IMG/VR virus record: IMGVR_UViG_3300026078_000023
Location: 1 to 64,000 of that record
Direction: 5' to 3' (one strand)
Origin: a virus
Length of the DNA: 64,000 bases
Shown here: positions 6,869 through 12,735 of the stretch, in pieces
Position numbering within the stretch: the first letter of the stretch is position 1
How the letters are laid out: each line of letters opens with the position of its first letter
Made by a program: the position numbers and the translations under genes
Notes under the pieces: generated by a model
Databases searched by the model: none
Told to the model about the DNA's origin: nothing
What the model saw: only the letters and a program-made list of their open reading frames with translations

Positions 6869-7063
6869 TCAGCGCGGGGCGAGCGCCAGGACCGCGCCGA
6901 CGACGGCCGCGAGCCCCATTGCGGCGGCCGCCAGCGCCACCAGGAGGTCGGCGCGGGCGCGCCGGCGGGCGGCGCACTCGCGCTCCTTGCGCTCCGACCA
7001 GGAGCCGCGCCTGGCGCGCCGGCGGCTCCGCATCTTCCGGGGCCACGTCACCGGGGTGGTCAC
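6869..7063 (-). CDS. small membrane protein with basic N-terminus (64 aa)
   Basis: GTG at 7063 overlaps the stop of the metallopeptidase gene. About 35 basic residues (RSRRRARRGSWSERKERE) precede one hydrophobic helix (LLVALAAAAMGLAAVVGAVLAL) at the C-terminus: a tail-anchored protein with its charged part in the cytoplasm. Last gene of the 7-deazaguanine operon; its role is unknown. Confidence 0.5.
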   Translation of the reverse strand: MTTPVTWPRKMRSRRRARRGSWSERKERECAARRRARADLLVALAAAAMGLAAVVGAVLALAPR

Positions 7064-8355
7064 GGCCTCCACCCCAGGAAGACGCCCTGCAGGCGCCTCT
7101 CGACCTCGCCCCAGTGCGCGCACCGCAGCTGGGCGGCGAGCCCCAGGTGCTTGCCCCCGAGGCCGTGGTCGGCGACGTAGGCGTGCTCGCGGCAGTCCAG
7201 GACCAGGACCGGCCAGACCGGCGGGAGGAGGTCGTCGTCGAGCGCCAGGGTCACCAGGCGCGGGGCGCCGCCGTCGCTGTCCACGGCCGCCACCGCCCAC
7301 GCCTGCGCGGCGAGTGCCGCTTGGCGGAGCTCCGCCAGCCACGCGGCCAGGCCCCCGCGGGCCTCGGTCGCCAGCTGGGTGACCGCCAGCCCAGGGACCT
7401 GGCCCGGCGGGGCCAGGTTGGCGAAGTGCAGGCCGTGCAGGCGGGCGGCGCCGAGCGCGGCCGGAAGCCGGCGGGCGGCGGCCAGGCGGGCGGCCGAGCC
7501 GGTGCGCTCGCCGAGGTAGTCGGAGACCGTCTCCGCGATCTGCTGGTACGGCTCGCGCCGGCCGGGGGCGGTCACCCTCTGGGGGCCGTAGAAGGCGCCG
7601 CGGTCCACCACCAGGCGGGCGACCAGCTCCAGCTTGCGCTGGGCGCCGGGCCCCTGGGTGGCCGGGTCCTCGCCTGAGAGCCAGAAGGCGAACGTCTCGG
7701 CCCAGTCCTCGTCGGCGTGCTTCTGCGCGTAGTGGGCCAGCTGGTTCGGGCCCGGGCGCCCCAGGTAGGTGACGAAGTCGGGGGCGGCGCCGGCGTCCGG
7801 CTCGTAGGCGTCGCGGTAGGGGGCGGAGAAGTCACCGAAGGCCTCGCGCCACCCGGGGAGCGCCCAGCCCTCGTAGGCGTAGAGCAGGGCGTGGCCGTAC
7901 TCGTGGCGCAGGACGCGCAGGACCTCCTCCTCCGTGAGGAGGTAGCGGCGCTCGGCGACCAGGGCCCAGGTCTCGGCGGACCCCAGGTACCAGGGGAGGT
8001 TGACGCTGGTGGCGCGGTCGGCGGTCCAGAAGTCGTCCGAACCCAGGTAGAAGCCGGGCCAGAACGTGAGGCCGCGGGAGGTGGTCTCGCCGCGCAGGCG
8101 GGCGAGGACGGCGGCCAGGCGCCCGCGCTCGAGGGAGAGCGGCAGGTCGCAGATGCGGGCGTCGAGGGTGCGGCGCAGGTCGCCGGGGGCGAGCGCCATG
8201 GCGGCGGCCGGGGGGGCGCCGGCGTCGACGGCCAGCTGCTGCTGGAGCGCCCCCAGCTCGCCGAGGCCGGCGGCGTGGAGCGCCAGGTGCTGGTCGAGGG
8301 CGCGGTCGGTGAACCCGGGGAGGCGGCCGCGCAGCGCGCTGGGGTCGAAGTTCAT
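7060..8355 (-). CDS. putative zinc metallopeptidase (zincin, HEYGH)
   Basis: 431 aa with a zincin motif HEYGH (residues 151-155) in VLRHEYGHALLYAYEGW and a downstream DEDWAETFAFWL (about 215-226) that could supply the third zinc ligand, as in putative zinc-binding metallopeptidases. No signal peptide is visible, so it probably acts in the cytoplasm. The ATG overlaps the stop of the queE-like gene (ATGA), so it is translated with the preQ0 pathway. The substrate is unknown. The C-terminal third has no recognised domain. Confidence 0.6.
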   Translation of the reverse strand: MNFDPSALRGRLPGFTDRALDQHLALHAAGLGELGALQQQLAVDAGAPPAAAMALAPGDLRRTLDARICDLPLSLERGRLAAVLARLRGETTSRGLTFWPGFYLGSDDFWTADRATSVNLPWYLGSAETWALVAERRYLLTEEEVLRVLRHEYGHALLYAYEGWALPGWREAFGDFSAPYRDAYEPDAGAAPDFVTYLGRPGPNQLAHYAQKHADEDWAETFAFWLSGEDPATQGPGAQRKLELVARLVVDRGAFYGPQRVTAPGRREPYQQIAETVSDYLGERTGSAARLAAARRLPAALGAARLHGLHFANLAPPGQVPGLAVTQLATEARGGLAAWLAELRQAALAAQAWAVAAVDSDGGAPRLVTLALDDDLLPPVWPVLVLDCREHAYVADHGLGGKHLGLAAQLRCAHWGEVERRLQGVFLGWRP

Positions 8356-9053
8356 CTGACCCCAATGTACTTGTGGACCTGGACGGACAGGTAGTAACCG
8401 CGGCTCATGCACCACGCGAGGCAGCGCGCCGTGGCGGCCGGGTGCTGGGACAGGGGTTGCAGCCACACCGGGGTGCCCGGCTGGTGCCAGCCGCGCGCGA
8501 GCAGCTCCTCGAGGTCGGCCAGGTGGCGCTCGGTCGACGTCGGGTGCTTGATCTCGTCGGCCCTGGCCACCACCTCCTCGAGGACCTCGAGGCCGCCGGC
8601 CTGGCGGATCTTCGGGCTGAGCGTCACCCAGGTCCCCGGGGCCACGCGGAGCGGGCTCGTCCCGCTGGTCTCCACCTGCACCGCGAACCCGTCGTCCTGG
8701 AGCAGGCGGGAGATCGGGCGCAGGTCGTGGTCGGCCGGCTCGCCGCCCGTCAGGACCACCAGGCGCGCGCCGCCGGCCACCCGCCGCACCTCCGCGGCGA
8801 GCTCGGCCGCCGAGAGCCTGGCGTGCGTCGGGGCGTCGGACGCCTTCTTGACCAGGCTCGAGAGCGGGACCAGGTCGGCCTCGTCGGTCCTCCAGGTGTG
8901 CTTCGTGTCGCAGAAGGCGCAGCCGACGCGGCAGCCCTGGAGGCGGACGAACACCGCCGGCCTGCCGGCGTTGGTGGCCTCGCCCTGGACGGTCGCGAAC
9001 ACCTCGTTGACGAGGTACTCGGCCGGGCCTACCGGAAGAACGCAGCCCGGCAC
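8352..9053 (-). CDS. queE: 7-carboxy-7-deazaguanine synthase (QueE)
   Basis: Radical-SAM enzyme that converts 6-carboxytetrahydropterin to 7-carboxy-7-deazaguanine. The Fe-S cluster cysteines are C41, C45 and C48 in RLQGCRVGCAFCDT, and VFATVQGE near the N-terminus and LTGGEP match the family. 233 aa, normal length. The only in-frame start ahead of the conserved region is GTG at 9053, so the gene overlaps queD by 25 bases. It works with the adjacent FolE, QueD and QueC to make preQ0. Confidence 0.9.
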   Translation of the reverse strand: MPGCVLPVGPAEYLVNEVFATVQGEATNAGRPAVFVRLQGCRVGCAFCDTKHTWRTDEADLVPLSSLVKKASDAPTHARLSAAELAAEVRRVAGGARLVVLTGGEPADHDLRPISRLLQDDGFAVQVETSGTSPLRVAPGTWVTLSPKIRQAGGLEVLEEVVARADEIKHPTSTERHLADLEELLARGWHQPGTPVWLQPLSQHPAATARCLAWCMSRGYYLSVQVHKYIGVR

Positions 9054-9448
9054 TTGCGGGTCTCCTCGACGACCACGGCCTGCAGGACGACGCCCGTGCC
9101 GCGCAGCTGCTGGGGCCCCACGACCTCCACCAGGTACTGGGCCACGTTCTCGGCCGTCGGGTTGAACGGGACGACGACGACGGTCTCGTCCAGATTAGTG
9201 AGGTGCTCGCGCAACGGGTCGTCGCCCCACACCAGGAACCGGTGATCCCAGTGGTCCTCGAGCCACTGGCAGAGCGCCGTCTTCACCACCGAGAAGTCGA
9301 GCACGCGCCCGACCTCGTCGAGGATCGCCGAGCCCACCGTGAAGCGGACGCGGTAGTTGTGCCCGTGCAGGTTGCGGCACTTGCCCTCGTGCCCGACCAC
9401 GCGGTGGCCGACCGAGATGTCGTGGTAGCGCTCGATCGCGTACCCCAT
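9029..9448 (-). CDS. queD: 6-carboxytetrahydropterin synthase (QueD)
   Basis: Pterin-synthase-fold enzyme acting after GTP cyclohydrolase. The zinc ligands H15, H28 and H30 and the catalytic-type Cys24 are seen in KCRNLHGHNY; NPTAENVAQYL is the usual C-terminal signature. 139 aa, normal size. ATG 9448 overlaps the folE stop (TGATG). Confidence 0.9.
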   Translation of the reverse strand: MGYAIERYHDISVGHRVVGHEGKCRNLHGHNYRVRFTVGSAILDEVGRVLDFSVVKTALCQWLEDHWDHRFLVWGDDPLREHLTNLDETVVVVPFNPTAENVAQYLVEVVGPQQLRGTGVVLQAVVVEETRKCRAAFFR

Positions 9449-10110
9449 CACCTGCCCCCGTTGACGATGGTCATGAACTCGGCCCTGGCCTCCGGCTTGT
9501 TGAGCATCACCCCGCGGAGCACGCTGGTGGTCATCTCCGTCTCGTTGTCGCAGACGCCGCGCCAGCTGGTGCACATGTGCCCGGCGCGCACCAGGACCGC
9601 CAGGCCGCGCGGCTCGATGAGCCGCTCGAGGAGGTCGGCGAGCTGGACGGTGGCCTCCTCCTGGATCTGCGGGCGGGCCATCACCCAGGCCGCCAGGCGG
9701 GCGAACTTCGACAGGCCGATCACCCGCTCGCCGGGGACCACGCCGAACCAGGCCCGGCCGACGATGGGGACCAGGTGGTGAGAGCACATGGACCTGACCG
9801 ACACCGGGCCCACCGCGTAGAGCTCGTCGAGCTTCCTGGCGTTCGGGAAATCGGTCACCTTCGGCTGCGGCTCGTACCGCCCGCGCATGGCCTCCCTGAC
9901 CAGCATCTTGGCCACCCGGCGGGGCGTGTCCTCGGTGTTGTGGTCCCGCCCGATGACCAGGGCGTCGAGCAGGCCCCGCACGGCGACCTCCACGCCGGCC
10001 TGCAGCCGGTCGAGGTCGCCGTCCACCAGGTGGGCGGCGATGCTGTCGTTCGCCCCGCACGGGGCGCCGGCCTCGGCCAGGCGCCCGCGGAGCTCGTCGG
10101 CGAACTTCAC
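9448..10110 (-). CDS. folE: GTP cyclohydrolase I (FolE)
   Basis: Converts GTP to dihydroneopterin triphosphate, the first step towards preQ0. Seen: NTEDTPRRVAKML, zinc and substrate residues in SMCSHHLVPIVG, GLSKFARL, QIQEEATVQLADLL and the second zinc Cys region in MCTSWRGVCDN. 220 aa, with a somewhat extended N-terminus of about 30 residues. GTG start at 10110 in a GTGA overlap with queC. Confidence 0.92.
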   Translation of the reverse strand: MKFADELRGRLAEAGAPCGANDSIAAHLVDGDLDRLQAGVEVAVRGLLDALVIGRDHNTEDTPRRVAKMLVREAMRGRYEPQPKVTDFPNARKLDELYAVGPVSVRSMCSHHLVPIVGRAWFGVVPGERVIGLSKFARLAAWVMARPQIQEEATVQLADLLERLIEPRGLAVLVRAGHMCTSWRGVCDNETEMTTSVLRGVMLNKPEARAEFMTIVNGGR

Positions 10111-10775
10111 GCTGCGTACGCCAGCGGGTCAATCCCCCCCGCGCGCTCGAAGGCCTCCAGGCGCTCGCGGCACGAGCCGCACTTCCCGCAGGCCAGCTGC
10201 CCGCCCTCGTAGCAGGTCCAGGTGCTGGCGAACGGGACGCCGATCTCAAGCCCGCGGGCGACGATCTGGACCTTGGTCATTTCGGAGAACGGCGCCAGGA
10301 GGGCCATGTTCTCCTTGCGGTGCCCGATGGTCCCGAGGCGGAGCGCCTTCTCGAGGCTGTTCACGTATTCGGGCCGGCAGTCCGGGTAGATGAAGTGGTC
10401 GCCGGCGTGGACGCCGAGCGCGACCGCGTCGCACATCTCCGAGCAGGCGACGCCCCAGGCGATGGACAGCATGATCGTGTTCCGGTTGGGGACGACCGTC
10501 TGCCGCATGGTCTCGGCCTCGTAGTGCCCGTGCGGGACGGCGACGGCCGCATCCGTGAGCGCCGATCCCTTGAGCAGCGCCCCCAGCCACGACACGTCCA
10601 CCACCTGGTGGGGCATCTTCAGCGCGCGCGCGATCGCCGCGGCCGCCACGAGCTCGCGCTTGTGGCGCTGGCCGTAATCGAACGAGAGGGCTGACAGCTG
10701 GTGCCCCTCCCCGGTCAGGTGGTAGGCGAGCGTTGCGCTGTCGGCGCCGCCCGAGAGAATCACCATGGTCTTCAT
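10107..10775 (-). CDS. queC: 7-cyano-7-deazaguanine (preQ0) synthase (QueC)
   Basis: ATP-dependent enzyme converting 7-carboxy-7-deazaguanine to preQ0. PP-loop SGGADSAT at residues 8-15, VPNRNTIMLSIAWG in the middle and the zinc site C-x7-C-x2-C-x2-C ending CGKCGSC near the C-terminus. 222 aa. ATG overlaps the stop of the DUF6884-like gene (ATGA). No fused amidotransferase domain, so the free product should be preQ0. Confidence 0.93.
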   Translation of the reverse strand: MKTMVILSGGADSATLAYHLTGEGHQLSALSFDYGQRHKRELVAAAAIARALKMPHQVVDVSWLGALLKGSALTDAAVAVPHGHYEAETMRQTVVPNRNTIMLSIAWGVACSEMCDAVALGVHAGDHFIYPDCRPEYVNSLEKALRLGTIGHRKENMALLAPFSEMTKVQIVARGLEIGVPFASTWTCYEGGQLACGKCGSCRERLEAFERAGGIDPLAYAA

Positions 10776-11259
10776 CGCGTCGTCCCCCTCTTAATTGCCG
10801 AGTCTAAACCCGTCGGCACCACGCCGTGGTTCCTCTTGAGCCAGTGCCGCTGCCAGCCGATGCCCCGCCCGGGGGTGTCCATGGCGCGGTTCAGCCACAG
10901 GAGGCCCGGGACGGCCTCGCGCAGGACGTCCGCGTAGGCCACGGGTCCGTAGAACACCACCAGGCCGGCGTCGACCAGGCCGAGCGCACGCGCCTGAGCG
11001 CGCACGCGGTCGAGGGTGACGGTGCCGCCCCCCCCCCCATGACCACGTCGTAGCGCCGGATGCGGTCTGTGCACCGGATCAGGCCGTATTTCGCGGACAG
11101 GATGAACACGCGGCCCTGCGGCGCCACCGACTTCGCCCACGCGAGCGACATGGTGAACATCGACCCCCGGTAGAGCTGCCACGCCGGCACCGGAGCCGGG
11201 CCAGGGAGCTTCTTCTTCCCGCAGGCCAGGACCACCGACACCGGCGCACCCTCAGGCAC
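10772..11259 (-). pseudogene. DUF6884/YaaA-like protein, frameshifted at an 11-G tract
   Basis: The N-terminal frame (10891-11259, GTG start) has VVLACGKKKL, PAWQLYRGSMFTMSLAWAKS and VFILSAKYGLI, the pattern of DUF6884/YaaA-like proteins. The rest of the domain (VFYGPVAYADVLREAVPGLL to HWLKRNHG) continues in another frame, ending at 10772. The switch falls at a run of 11 C on the plus strand, 11028-11038. One extra base would give one uninterrupted protein of about 162 aa. This could be an assembly error, phase variation or slippage during expression. Its place between DpdA and QueC suggests a role in base modification; that is inference. Confidence 0.65.
11028..11038. repeat. mononucleotide C11/G11 tract
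   Basis: Eleven consecutive C on the plus strand, G on the coding strand. It lies inside the DUF6884-like gene just after RRYDVVM and exactly where the reading frame changes. It is the longest homopolymer I noticed in the window. G tracts of this length are known to be slippage-prone. Confidence 0.95.
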
Positions 11260-12091
11260 GCCGCTCGTCCTCGTACCCGGCGAGCAGGAGCGTCAAGACG
11301 TCCTCGGACCCGGCCGCATTGAACATGAGGGTGCCGAGGTTGCTCGAGATCTGATCCGACAGGCGGACGGCGCTCCGCGCGCTGAGCGCGCGGGCCAGGC
11401 ACCGTTGCCCCGGCTGCCAGGCGGCCTCCTTGGCCAGGGCGCGCGGGTCGACGCCGTAGGATTCGATCGCGTCGTGCAGGGCCGCCGGGACCTTCTTCGC
11501 GAAGGTCTCCTTCTTGAACTGTCGGACGCGCCCGCGCCCGAGGTACAGGGTCAGGACGCAGTAGCGGGGGACGTTGTCCCACGTCGAGCTGTCGCACATG
11601 TACGGGCGGTAGTGCTTGAGGAACTCGACGTCGGTGAACCCCAGCCAGTGGACCCGGCGCTTGCCGACGTGCTTCATGATCCCGTTCACGAAGCCGCGGT
11701 TCCCTGGCGTCCCGACGAGCCCGCCCACGCCGACGACGTCGCTGGTCCGGTAGTAGTCCTCGAGGACCGACAGGTCCTCGCCGCGCGTGAAGATGGGGAC
11801 CGGCTTGAACCCGCGCTTGAGCATGAGCTCGTAGTTGCGGAGCGTCCCCTTCGGGTCGCCGACGACGTCGAGGGCGAAGTATCGCCAGGGCGGGAACGGC
11901 ATGCCCTCGATGAACCGGCAGTAGTCGTCGACGGCGATCTTCTTGCCGGCCTTCCAGGCGGTGAAGGCCCCCGAATCGAGGAGGAACCTGACCTTCTCTC
12001 GGTTGGCGGCGACCAACTCGGTCACCGCCTTGGTCATGTACGGGTAGGCGACCAGCAGGTTGAGGAGCGGGGCTGAATCCCGCTGGCTCAA
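11252..12091 (-). CDS. dpdA: DpdA-like DNA guanine transglycosylase
   Basis: 279-aa TIM-barrel protein of the tRNA-guanine-transglycosylase superfamily, phage DpdA type, which exchanges guanine in DNA for a 7-deazaguanine. Seen: DSGAF (residues 39-43), ALDVVGD (73-79), VGVGGLVG (120-127), HWLGFTD (148-154) and CDSSTW (166-171). No TGT-type zinc-binding Cys cluster, as expected for DpdA rather than tRNA enzymes. TTG start at 12091 overlaps the stop of the ParB-like gene (TTGA). It sits directly ahead of the preQ0 genes, so the substrate is probably preQ0. Confidence 0.8.
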   Translation of the reverse strand: MSQRDSAPLLNLLVAYPYMTKAVTELVAANREKVRFLLDSGAFTAWKAGKKIAVDDYCRFIEGMPFPPWRYFALDVVGDPKGTLRNYELMLKRGFKPVPIFTRGEDLSVLEDYYRTSDVVGVGGLVGTPGNRGFVNGIMKHVGKRRVHWLGFTDVEFLKHYRPYMCDSSTWDNVPRYCVLTLYLGRGRVRQFKKETFAKKVPAALHDAIESYGVDPRALAKEAAWQPGQRCLARALSARSAVRLSDQISSNLGTLMFNAAGSEDVLTLLLAGYEDERRA

Positions 12092-12735
12092 CCGACCCGC
12101 ACCTTCGGGAATTTCGCGACCGCCGCCTCGACCGCCTTCAGGACCTTGGCCTTGGCCGACTGGGGGCAGAACACGACGACCCGGGCGAGGATGCCGTCCG
12201 TGTTCGAACCGTGGCCCCGGATCGCCGTGATGTCGCTGTCCCAGCCGCGCGCCAGCGCCGCGGCGTCGTCCGCGCTCCAGCCGACCGCCAGCAGGGCGTC
12301 GTCCCCGCCCTTGGCGATCCCGGCCAGCATCGGACCCAGGACCGAGTCATCCCAGCCGCCGAGCTCGACCAGGCGGTTGTCGGCGAGCAGGTACGCCTCC
12401 GCCTCCTCTTCGCTGTCGAAGGCCATCCCGACCACGACCGGGATCTTCCACTCACCGTCAGGGTCGACGACGATCCCGCGGGGGACCTTACCCGGCGTCT
12501 CGGACTTGATGAGCTCGACGGCCTCCTTGCGGCCGTGGCCGGCGGCGATCCGGCCGGTGGCGGCGTCCTCGAGCGGCGGGGCCCGGAACCCCCACCGGCG
12601 GATGCTGGCCATGAGGGCGGGGACGTCGTGGAGCTTCGGGTTGCGCCTGGCCGGCTTGATGTCCGGAAGGCGCTTGTACTCGATCCTGGCCTGCTGGTCA
12701 GCCGCCGGAGCGGCCGCGGTCTTCGCCTTCGCCAT
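12088..12735 (-). CDS. ParB/Srx-fold protein
   Basis: 215-aa protein with the ParB-like nuclease/NTPase fold signature: IKPARRNPKLHD (27-38), GFRAPPLEDAATGRIAAGHGRKEAVELI (about 49-76) and EEAEAYLLADNRLVELGGWD later. ATG at 12735 is preferred; codons upstream overlap the preceding gene. Phage ParB-fold proteins of this kind often accompany DNA methyltransferases. Here it opens the DpdA operon, and the bacterial Dpd system also uses a ParB-related protein, DpdB. A role in recognising or activating the target base is inferred. Confidence 0.65.
   Translation of the reverse strand: MAKAKTAAAPAADQQARIEYKRLPDIKPARRNPKLHDVPALMASIRRWGFRAPPLEDAATGRIAAGHGRKEAVELIKSETPGKVPRGIVVDPDGEWKIPVVVGMAFDSEEEAEAYLLADNRLVELGGWDDSVLGPMLAGIAKGGDDALLAVGWSADDAAALARGWDSDITAIRGHGSNTDGILARVVVFCPQSAKAKVLKAVEAAVAKFPKVRVG

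Follow-up and report, generated by a model that had tools for sequence, protein, structure and literature searches.

An operon with predicted roles in preQ0 synthesis and DNA transglycosylation

The stretch of DNA analysed, referred to below as the window, comprises positions 1–64,000 of the 93,289-base IMG/VR record IMGVR_UViG_3300026078_000023. The record has a GC content of approximately 71%, and no tRNA genes were found within the 64-kb window. Eight genes lie on the minus strand from position 12735 to 7060, in the order ParB-like, DpdA, DUF6884, QueC, FolE, QueD, QueE and metallopeptidase, and all features described here are on this strand. Neighbouring genes abut or overlap by a few bases, the largest overlap being the 25 bases shared by QueD and QueE, given a QueE start at 9053. 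Matches to Pfam, NCBIfam and PHROG families bear out the original prediction, made from the bare sequence, that FolE, QueD, QueE, QueC and DpdA are encoded together at 7060–12735.

The preQ0 pathway is complete, each of its four enzymes being recognised by curated profiles: GTP cyclohydrolase I, FolE (9448–10110; PF01227, GTP_cyclohydroI, 3.6e-42); 6-carboxytetrahydropterin synthase, QueD (9029–9448; PF01242, 5.5e-26 and phrog_2389, 2.5e-50); an E. coli-type radical SAM 7-carboxy-7-deazaguanine synthase, QueE (8352–9053; TIGR04322, 2.9e-74); and 7-cyano-7-deazaguanine synthase, QueC (10107–10775, 222 aa; PF06508, 3e-65 and TIGR00364, 2.5e-59). Active-site motifs were identified by reading the sequences, namely SGGxDS and four cysteines in QueC, CX3CX2C in QueE, HGH in QueD and CSHH in FolE. 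It had also been proposed that QueF-, ArcS- and GAT-QueC-type genes are lacking. This holds for QueF, since the QueF model has no match across the whole 93,289-base record, and for GAT-QueC, since a QueC of only 222 aa has no fused GAT domain. The TGT model PF01702 likewise has no match across the record, but it also misses the operon's own DpdA and is therefore a weak test for ArcS.

DpdA is a 7-deazaguanine DNA transglycosylase of the DpdA type with a TTG start (11252–12091; phrog_887, 1.1e-29). D39 (in LDSGAF) and D167 (in CDSS) are invariant in an alignment with annotated phage homologues that took in proteins from Mycobacterium, Microbacterium, Rhizobium and Vibrio phages. Since comparison with PDB profiles gave chance matches only, assignment to the family rests on PHROGs and the phage homologues. 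Scans with DpdA yielded 30 loci from viruses and 10 from GTDB genomes, and its relatives number 34. Tandem pairs of DpdA genes were seen at two loci, L028 (7198–8846) and L015 (670–2543; Microbacterium phage Megan).

The related loci also vary in their preQ0 genes. Four of them (L034–L037) have preQ0 operons without QueC, and in two of these a Methyltransf_23 gene takes its place (L034, 1566–2144, and L036); the base inserted there may be a carboxy derivative. No QueC was found within the stretch read of Mycobacterium phage Cracklewink (L014), where the expected position is occupied by a protein of 141 aa that matches no Pfam model (2047–2472). A small phosphoribosyltransferase-like gene lies in or beside the preQ0 operon at L024 (2985–3371), L023 (10862–11284), L034 (3267–3650), L036 (3234–3617) and L038 (4634–4996), and perhaps salvages the guanine released by DpdA. 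Such a gene is absent from the phage studied here.

A ParB-like gene is a standard neighbour of this type of DpdA

The first gene of the operon (12088–12735, with a start at 12735 or 12813) encodes a protein of the ParB/Srx fold (phrog_620, 2.4e-23; PDB ParB/Noc profile, 5e-11). Its AlphaFold model has a pLDDT of 89 and finds CDP-bound ParB (6sdk) as its best PDB match in Foldseek (1e-5), and its CTP-binding motifs are, by reading, non-canonical. The ParB-fold gene had been singled out as an unusual partner. It is instead a standard one: of 35 related loci, named phages among them, 32 have it immediately upstream of DpdA, usually with QueC next, and it heads the Rosebush-type operon. The order ParB-DpdA-QueC recurs in dozens of loci. 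The protein is probably a helper in DNA binding. It is not a true DpdB, as it has no match to the DpdB/DndB profiles. An apparent ParB-DpdA fusion at another locus (L005) was traced to a frame shift near the end of ParB, the normal ParB tail (IEYEQ, then stop) being present in the other frame.

The DUF6884 gene is related to DpdC

Between DpdA and QueC lies a DUF6884 gene of approximately 150 aa that is spread over two reading frames. The N-terminal half (11039–11259, frame A) carries a C-x3-K motif and matches Pfam DUF6884 (3.5e-12) and, from this half alone, the PADLOC DpdC profile (8.9e-7). The C-terminal half (10772–11027) is in the other frame, can be aligned with the corresponding part of intact homologues and retains the motif PGxGIGWQR. 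DUF6884 is given as the Pfam domain of dpdC in a genome-mining paper of 2025 (PMC11888242). A paper of 2026 describes DpdC as the hydrolase acting on dPreQ0 to give dADG, with DpdB a ParB-like ATPase (PMC12839542).

Several comparisons indicate that DUF6884 is, by sequence, a remote homologue of DpdC. Intact phage homologues also match the PADLOC profile, and hhalign aligns them with two DpdC sequences over 93 columns at 94.5% probability. Within a small set, a profile built from phage DUF6884 finds two Burkholderiales DpdC genes (2e-5 to 5e-5), each adjoining a DpdB-like gene. In Myxococcus phage Mx4 (L011, 4980–6596), DUF6884 is fused to a full-length DpdB (3.6e-123) in a protein annotated only as hypothetical. 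The C-x3-K motif is common to every DUF6884 sequence seen and to both DpdC sequences read. Phage DUF6884 is shorter than half of the full DpdC (approximately 310 aa), the alignment covers only the core, and no PDB match to DUF6884 was found. We name the protein DpdC-like rather than DpdC because it is short and split over two frames.

Its position between DpdA and QueC is as first described, but it recurs in other preQ0 operons, and the description of three unusual partners holds only in part. Used as the only query, the DUF6884 half from the window retrieved five viral loci, all of them beside preQ0 genes, although these represent two independent lineages because four are near-identical in layout. 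Further copies are found in the preQ0 operons of L021, L030, L043, L044, L047 and L052, mostly just after QueC. DUF6884 is also present in many mycobacteriophages without this type of DpdA, and is wholly missing from the sister phage L002 and from most relatives.

The original prediction held that the final base would be dPreQ0 unless one of the partners modifies it. Its recurrence beside preQ0 genes and its kinship with DpdC make DUF6884 the partner in question, and it is the best candidate, on homology, for the step from dPreQ0 to dADG, with its invariant cysteine as the putative attacker of the nitrile. However, possession of the gene does not guarantee conversion of the base: it is carried by Rosebush-type phages (35 records, Rosebush itself not among them), yet Rosebush DNA has dPreQ0 at approximately 28% of G and dADG at only 0.003% (PMC6884629).

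The DUF6884 gene is broken, as assembled, at a G11 tract

The gene is not the single open frame that had been assumed. Together its two halves span the intact homologues, and the frame changes exactly at a G11 homopolymer (11028–11038; C11 on the plus strand). The homopolymer scan shows this to be the only homopolymer of more than 8 in the 64 kb, for which a first-order Markov model gives an expectation of 0.2 G/C runs of at least 11. GC3, calculated for each half in its own frame, is 0.92 before the tract and 0.89 after it, and because it is still high on both sides the second half does not appear to have decayed. The stop of this half overlaps the start of QueC. Possible origins of the break are a phase-variation tract, a recent mutation or an assembly error.

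At somewhat below even odds, the split arose through faulty sequencing or assembly of a long homopolymer, in which case the gene would be intact in the phage and its DNA would contain dADG. The break falls exactly within a kind of sequence that is error-prone, and the coding composition and conserved motifs of both halves, as well as the overlap with QueC, point the same way. Against this, all of the other operon genes are unbroken, and a second split DUF6884 is found in the preQ0 operon of a Pseudonocardiaceae MAG (L047, 9698–10110), where the split is at another site that has no homopolymer; breakage is thus not peculiar to G11. We consider it rather unlikely that DUF6884 is a dead gene and that the phage, like Rosebush, makes dPreQ0 only. 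The lack of the gene from the sister phage and most relatives and the near absence of dADG in Rosebush would fit such a loss, but GC3 and the conserved motifs past the tract show no sign of decay.

A phase-variation switch, whereby slippage at G11 toggles the DpdC-like gene and the population mixes dPreQ0 and dADG genomes, is improbable, even though the longest homopolymer of the 64 kb lies inside the candidate gene for finishing the base and the coding signal is intact on either side. DUF6884 is split at 2 of 18 loci compared with 2 of 262 for six other families (p ~0.02 by hand estimate), a count over all loci in which the window's split was entered by hand as its second half falls under the profile threshold. 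These numbers are small, intact DUF6884 homologues have no long G tracts, and the tract is present in one assembly only, an exact-flank scan of the collection contigs having found no second copy of the locus. Programmed frameshifting was rejected, since a hairpin downstream of G11 is no stronger than in shuffled sequences (z -1.26) and L047 shifts the opposite way.

A metallopeptidase nested within a superoxide dismutase

The last gene of the operon (7060–8355, 431 aa) had been described as a zinc metallopeptidase. The peptidase is indeed present (Peptidase_Mx, 9e-7), but the protein also matches Fe/Mn superoxide dismutase (SOD; Sod_Fe_C, 2.5e-4, and 2.5e-10 in the copy of the sister phage L002), with the SOD 1p7g matched at 3.5e-13. 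In order, the domains are an SOD helical hairpin at approximately residues 8–50, the peptidase at 63–290 (HEYGH at 151–155) and the remaining SOD at 297–430. Residues 63–290 resemble bacterial metallopeptidases of approximately 350–530 aa, and residues 297–430 ordinary Fe/Mn superoxide dismutases. The metal ligands H23, H307, D387 and H391 are all present in both copies, H23 being placed by a short alignment. The hairpin from L002 was compared with five SODs, and for two of them its score was above that of all 2000 shuffles; the window copy gave a weaker signal (best p 0.0015), and no signal came from the SOD that is most distant. Because the hairpin and the four ligands flank the peptidase part, the sequences indicate that the metallopeptidase is nested within an Fe/Mn superoxide dismutase domain. 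An AlphaFold model made with two sequences had a mean pLDDT of 43 and was unusable.

Among 299 bacterial genomes the metallopeptidase and SOD are separate genes, none of the named phages has the combined protein, and the only other copy found is that of L002. In the phage studied here as in L002, the start of this gene overlaps, by reading, the stop of QueE. A membrane protein had also been placed at the end of the operon; all that we find there is an ORF of 54 aa containing a single hydrophobic stretch (6869–7033), identified by reading and with low confidence, for which no counterpart was seen in L002.

Predicted DNA modification

Gene content, order and homology are firm here, as are the break in frame and the nested domains, and from these we infer the chemistry throughout, the role of ParB and the DUF6884 step. 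FolE, QueD, QueE and QueC would convert GTP to preQ0, and DpdA, probably aided by the ParB-fold protein, would exchange part of the guanine for preQ0 in replicated phage DNA, where it would act as a shield against host restriction enzymes. The replacement of guanine by preQ0, as originally predicted, is well supported by the full pathway, the conserved DpdA residues and the Rosebush-type gene order. DUF6884, as a short DpdC relative, could act next, perhaps via its invariant cysteine, and convert dPreQ0 to the amide dADG by hydration of the nitrile. Formation of dADG would require a tract of variable length, slippage by the ribosome or a break that exists only through misassembly; since DUF6884 is split at G11 as assembled, mainly dPreQ0 is expected in the sequenced genome. 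The most likely base is therefore dPreQ0, and an in-frame DUF6884 could also yield dADG. The SOD/metallopeptidase is predicted to be co-translated with QueE, and one guess is that it protects this oxygen-sensitive iron-sulphur enzyme.

We assign a probability of about 0.72 to this reading as a whole, that is, a phage 7-deazaguanine DNA-modification operon with the preQ0 pathway, ParB help, the DUF6884 step and the outcome of the split gene taken jointly. That the pathway instead supplies host tRNA queuosine synthesis, a role proposed for phages that have the pathway but no DpdA, is very improbable, as the same operon holds a DpdA that resembles phage DpdAs and not a tRNA TGT (no match to PF01702).

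A modified base can protect phage DNA from bacterial restriction enzymes. How phages form dADG has been an open question, the base having been detected in them with no enzyme known to account for it (PMC6884629). DUF6884, as a DpdC relative that recurs in preQ0 operons, offers a concrete and testable candidate. Were the G11 tract to vary, DNA modification in the phage would be switchable, and slippage might allow one lineage to meet hosts whose restriction systems read either dPreQ0 or dADG. The coupling of an SOD with an inserted metallopeptidase to a radical SAM enzyme is an arrangement found elsewhere only in L002.

Comparison with known systems

Among the closest known systems are the Rosebush/Godines-type mycobacteriophages (Bclasvirinae), which likewise have ParB first, followed by DpdA, QueC, QueD, QueE and FolE, with DUF6884 nearby; in Godines the order is ParB-DpdA-QueC-QueD-QueE-FolE-terminase. 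In these phages, however, FolE is last, DUF6884 is a separate, convergent and intact gene beyond the terminase, and there is no SOD/metallopeptidase within the stretch read. The bacterial dpd island (dpdA-dpdB-dpdC) similarly places a DpdA next to preQ0 genes together with a partner from the ParB superfamily and a relative of DpdC. The operon described here differs in its phage-type DpdA, in a ParB-like protein unmatched by DpdB profiles and in a DUF6884 that is both short and broken across frames, and no restriction genes were identified.

DpdA and the four preQ0 enzymes are shared with the systems of Escherichia phages 9g and CAjan, and in CAjan the modification is lost on deletion of dpdA (PMC6884629). 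In phage 9g, GAT-QueC makes dG+, whereas the operon described here adds ParB, DUF6884 and the SOD/metallopeptidase. As in group 2 of Hutinet et al., there are four preQ0 enzymes, the DpdA aspartates and no QueF/QueF-L or GAT-QueC, the test for ArcS being weak. The last gene resembles Fe/Mn superoxide dismutase in both SOD parts and in the four metal ligands, and differs in that approximately 230 residues of zinc metallopeptidase interrupt the domain. Overall, the operon is a variant of a known system, and its new parts are the recurrence and the break of the DpdC-like gene and the nested SOD.
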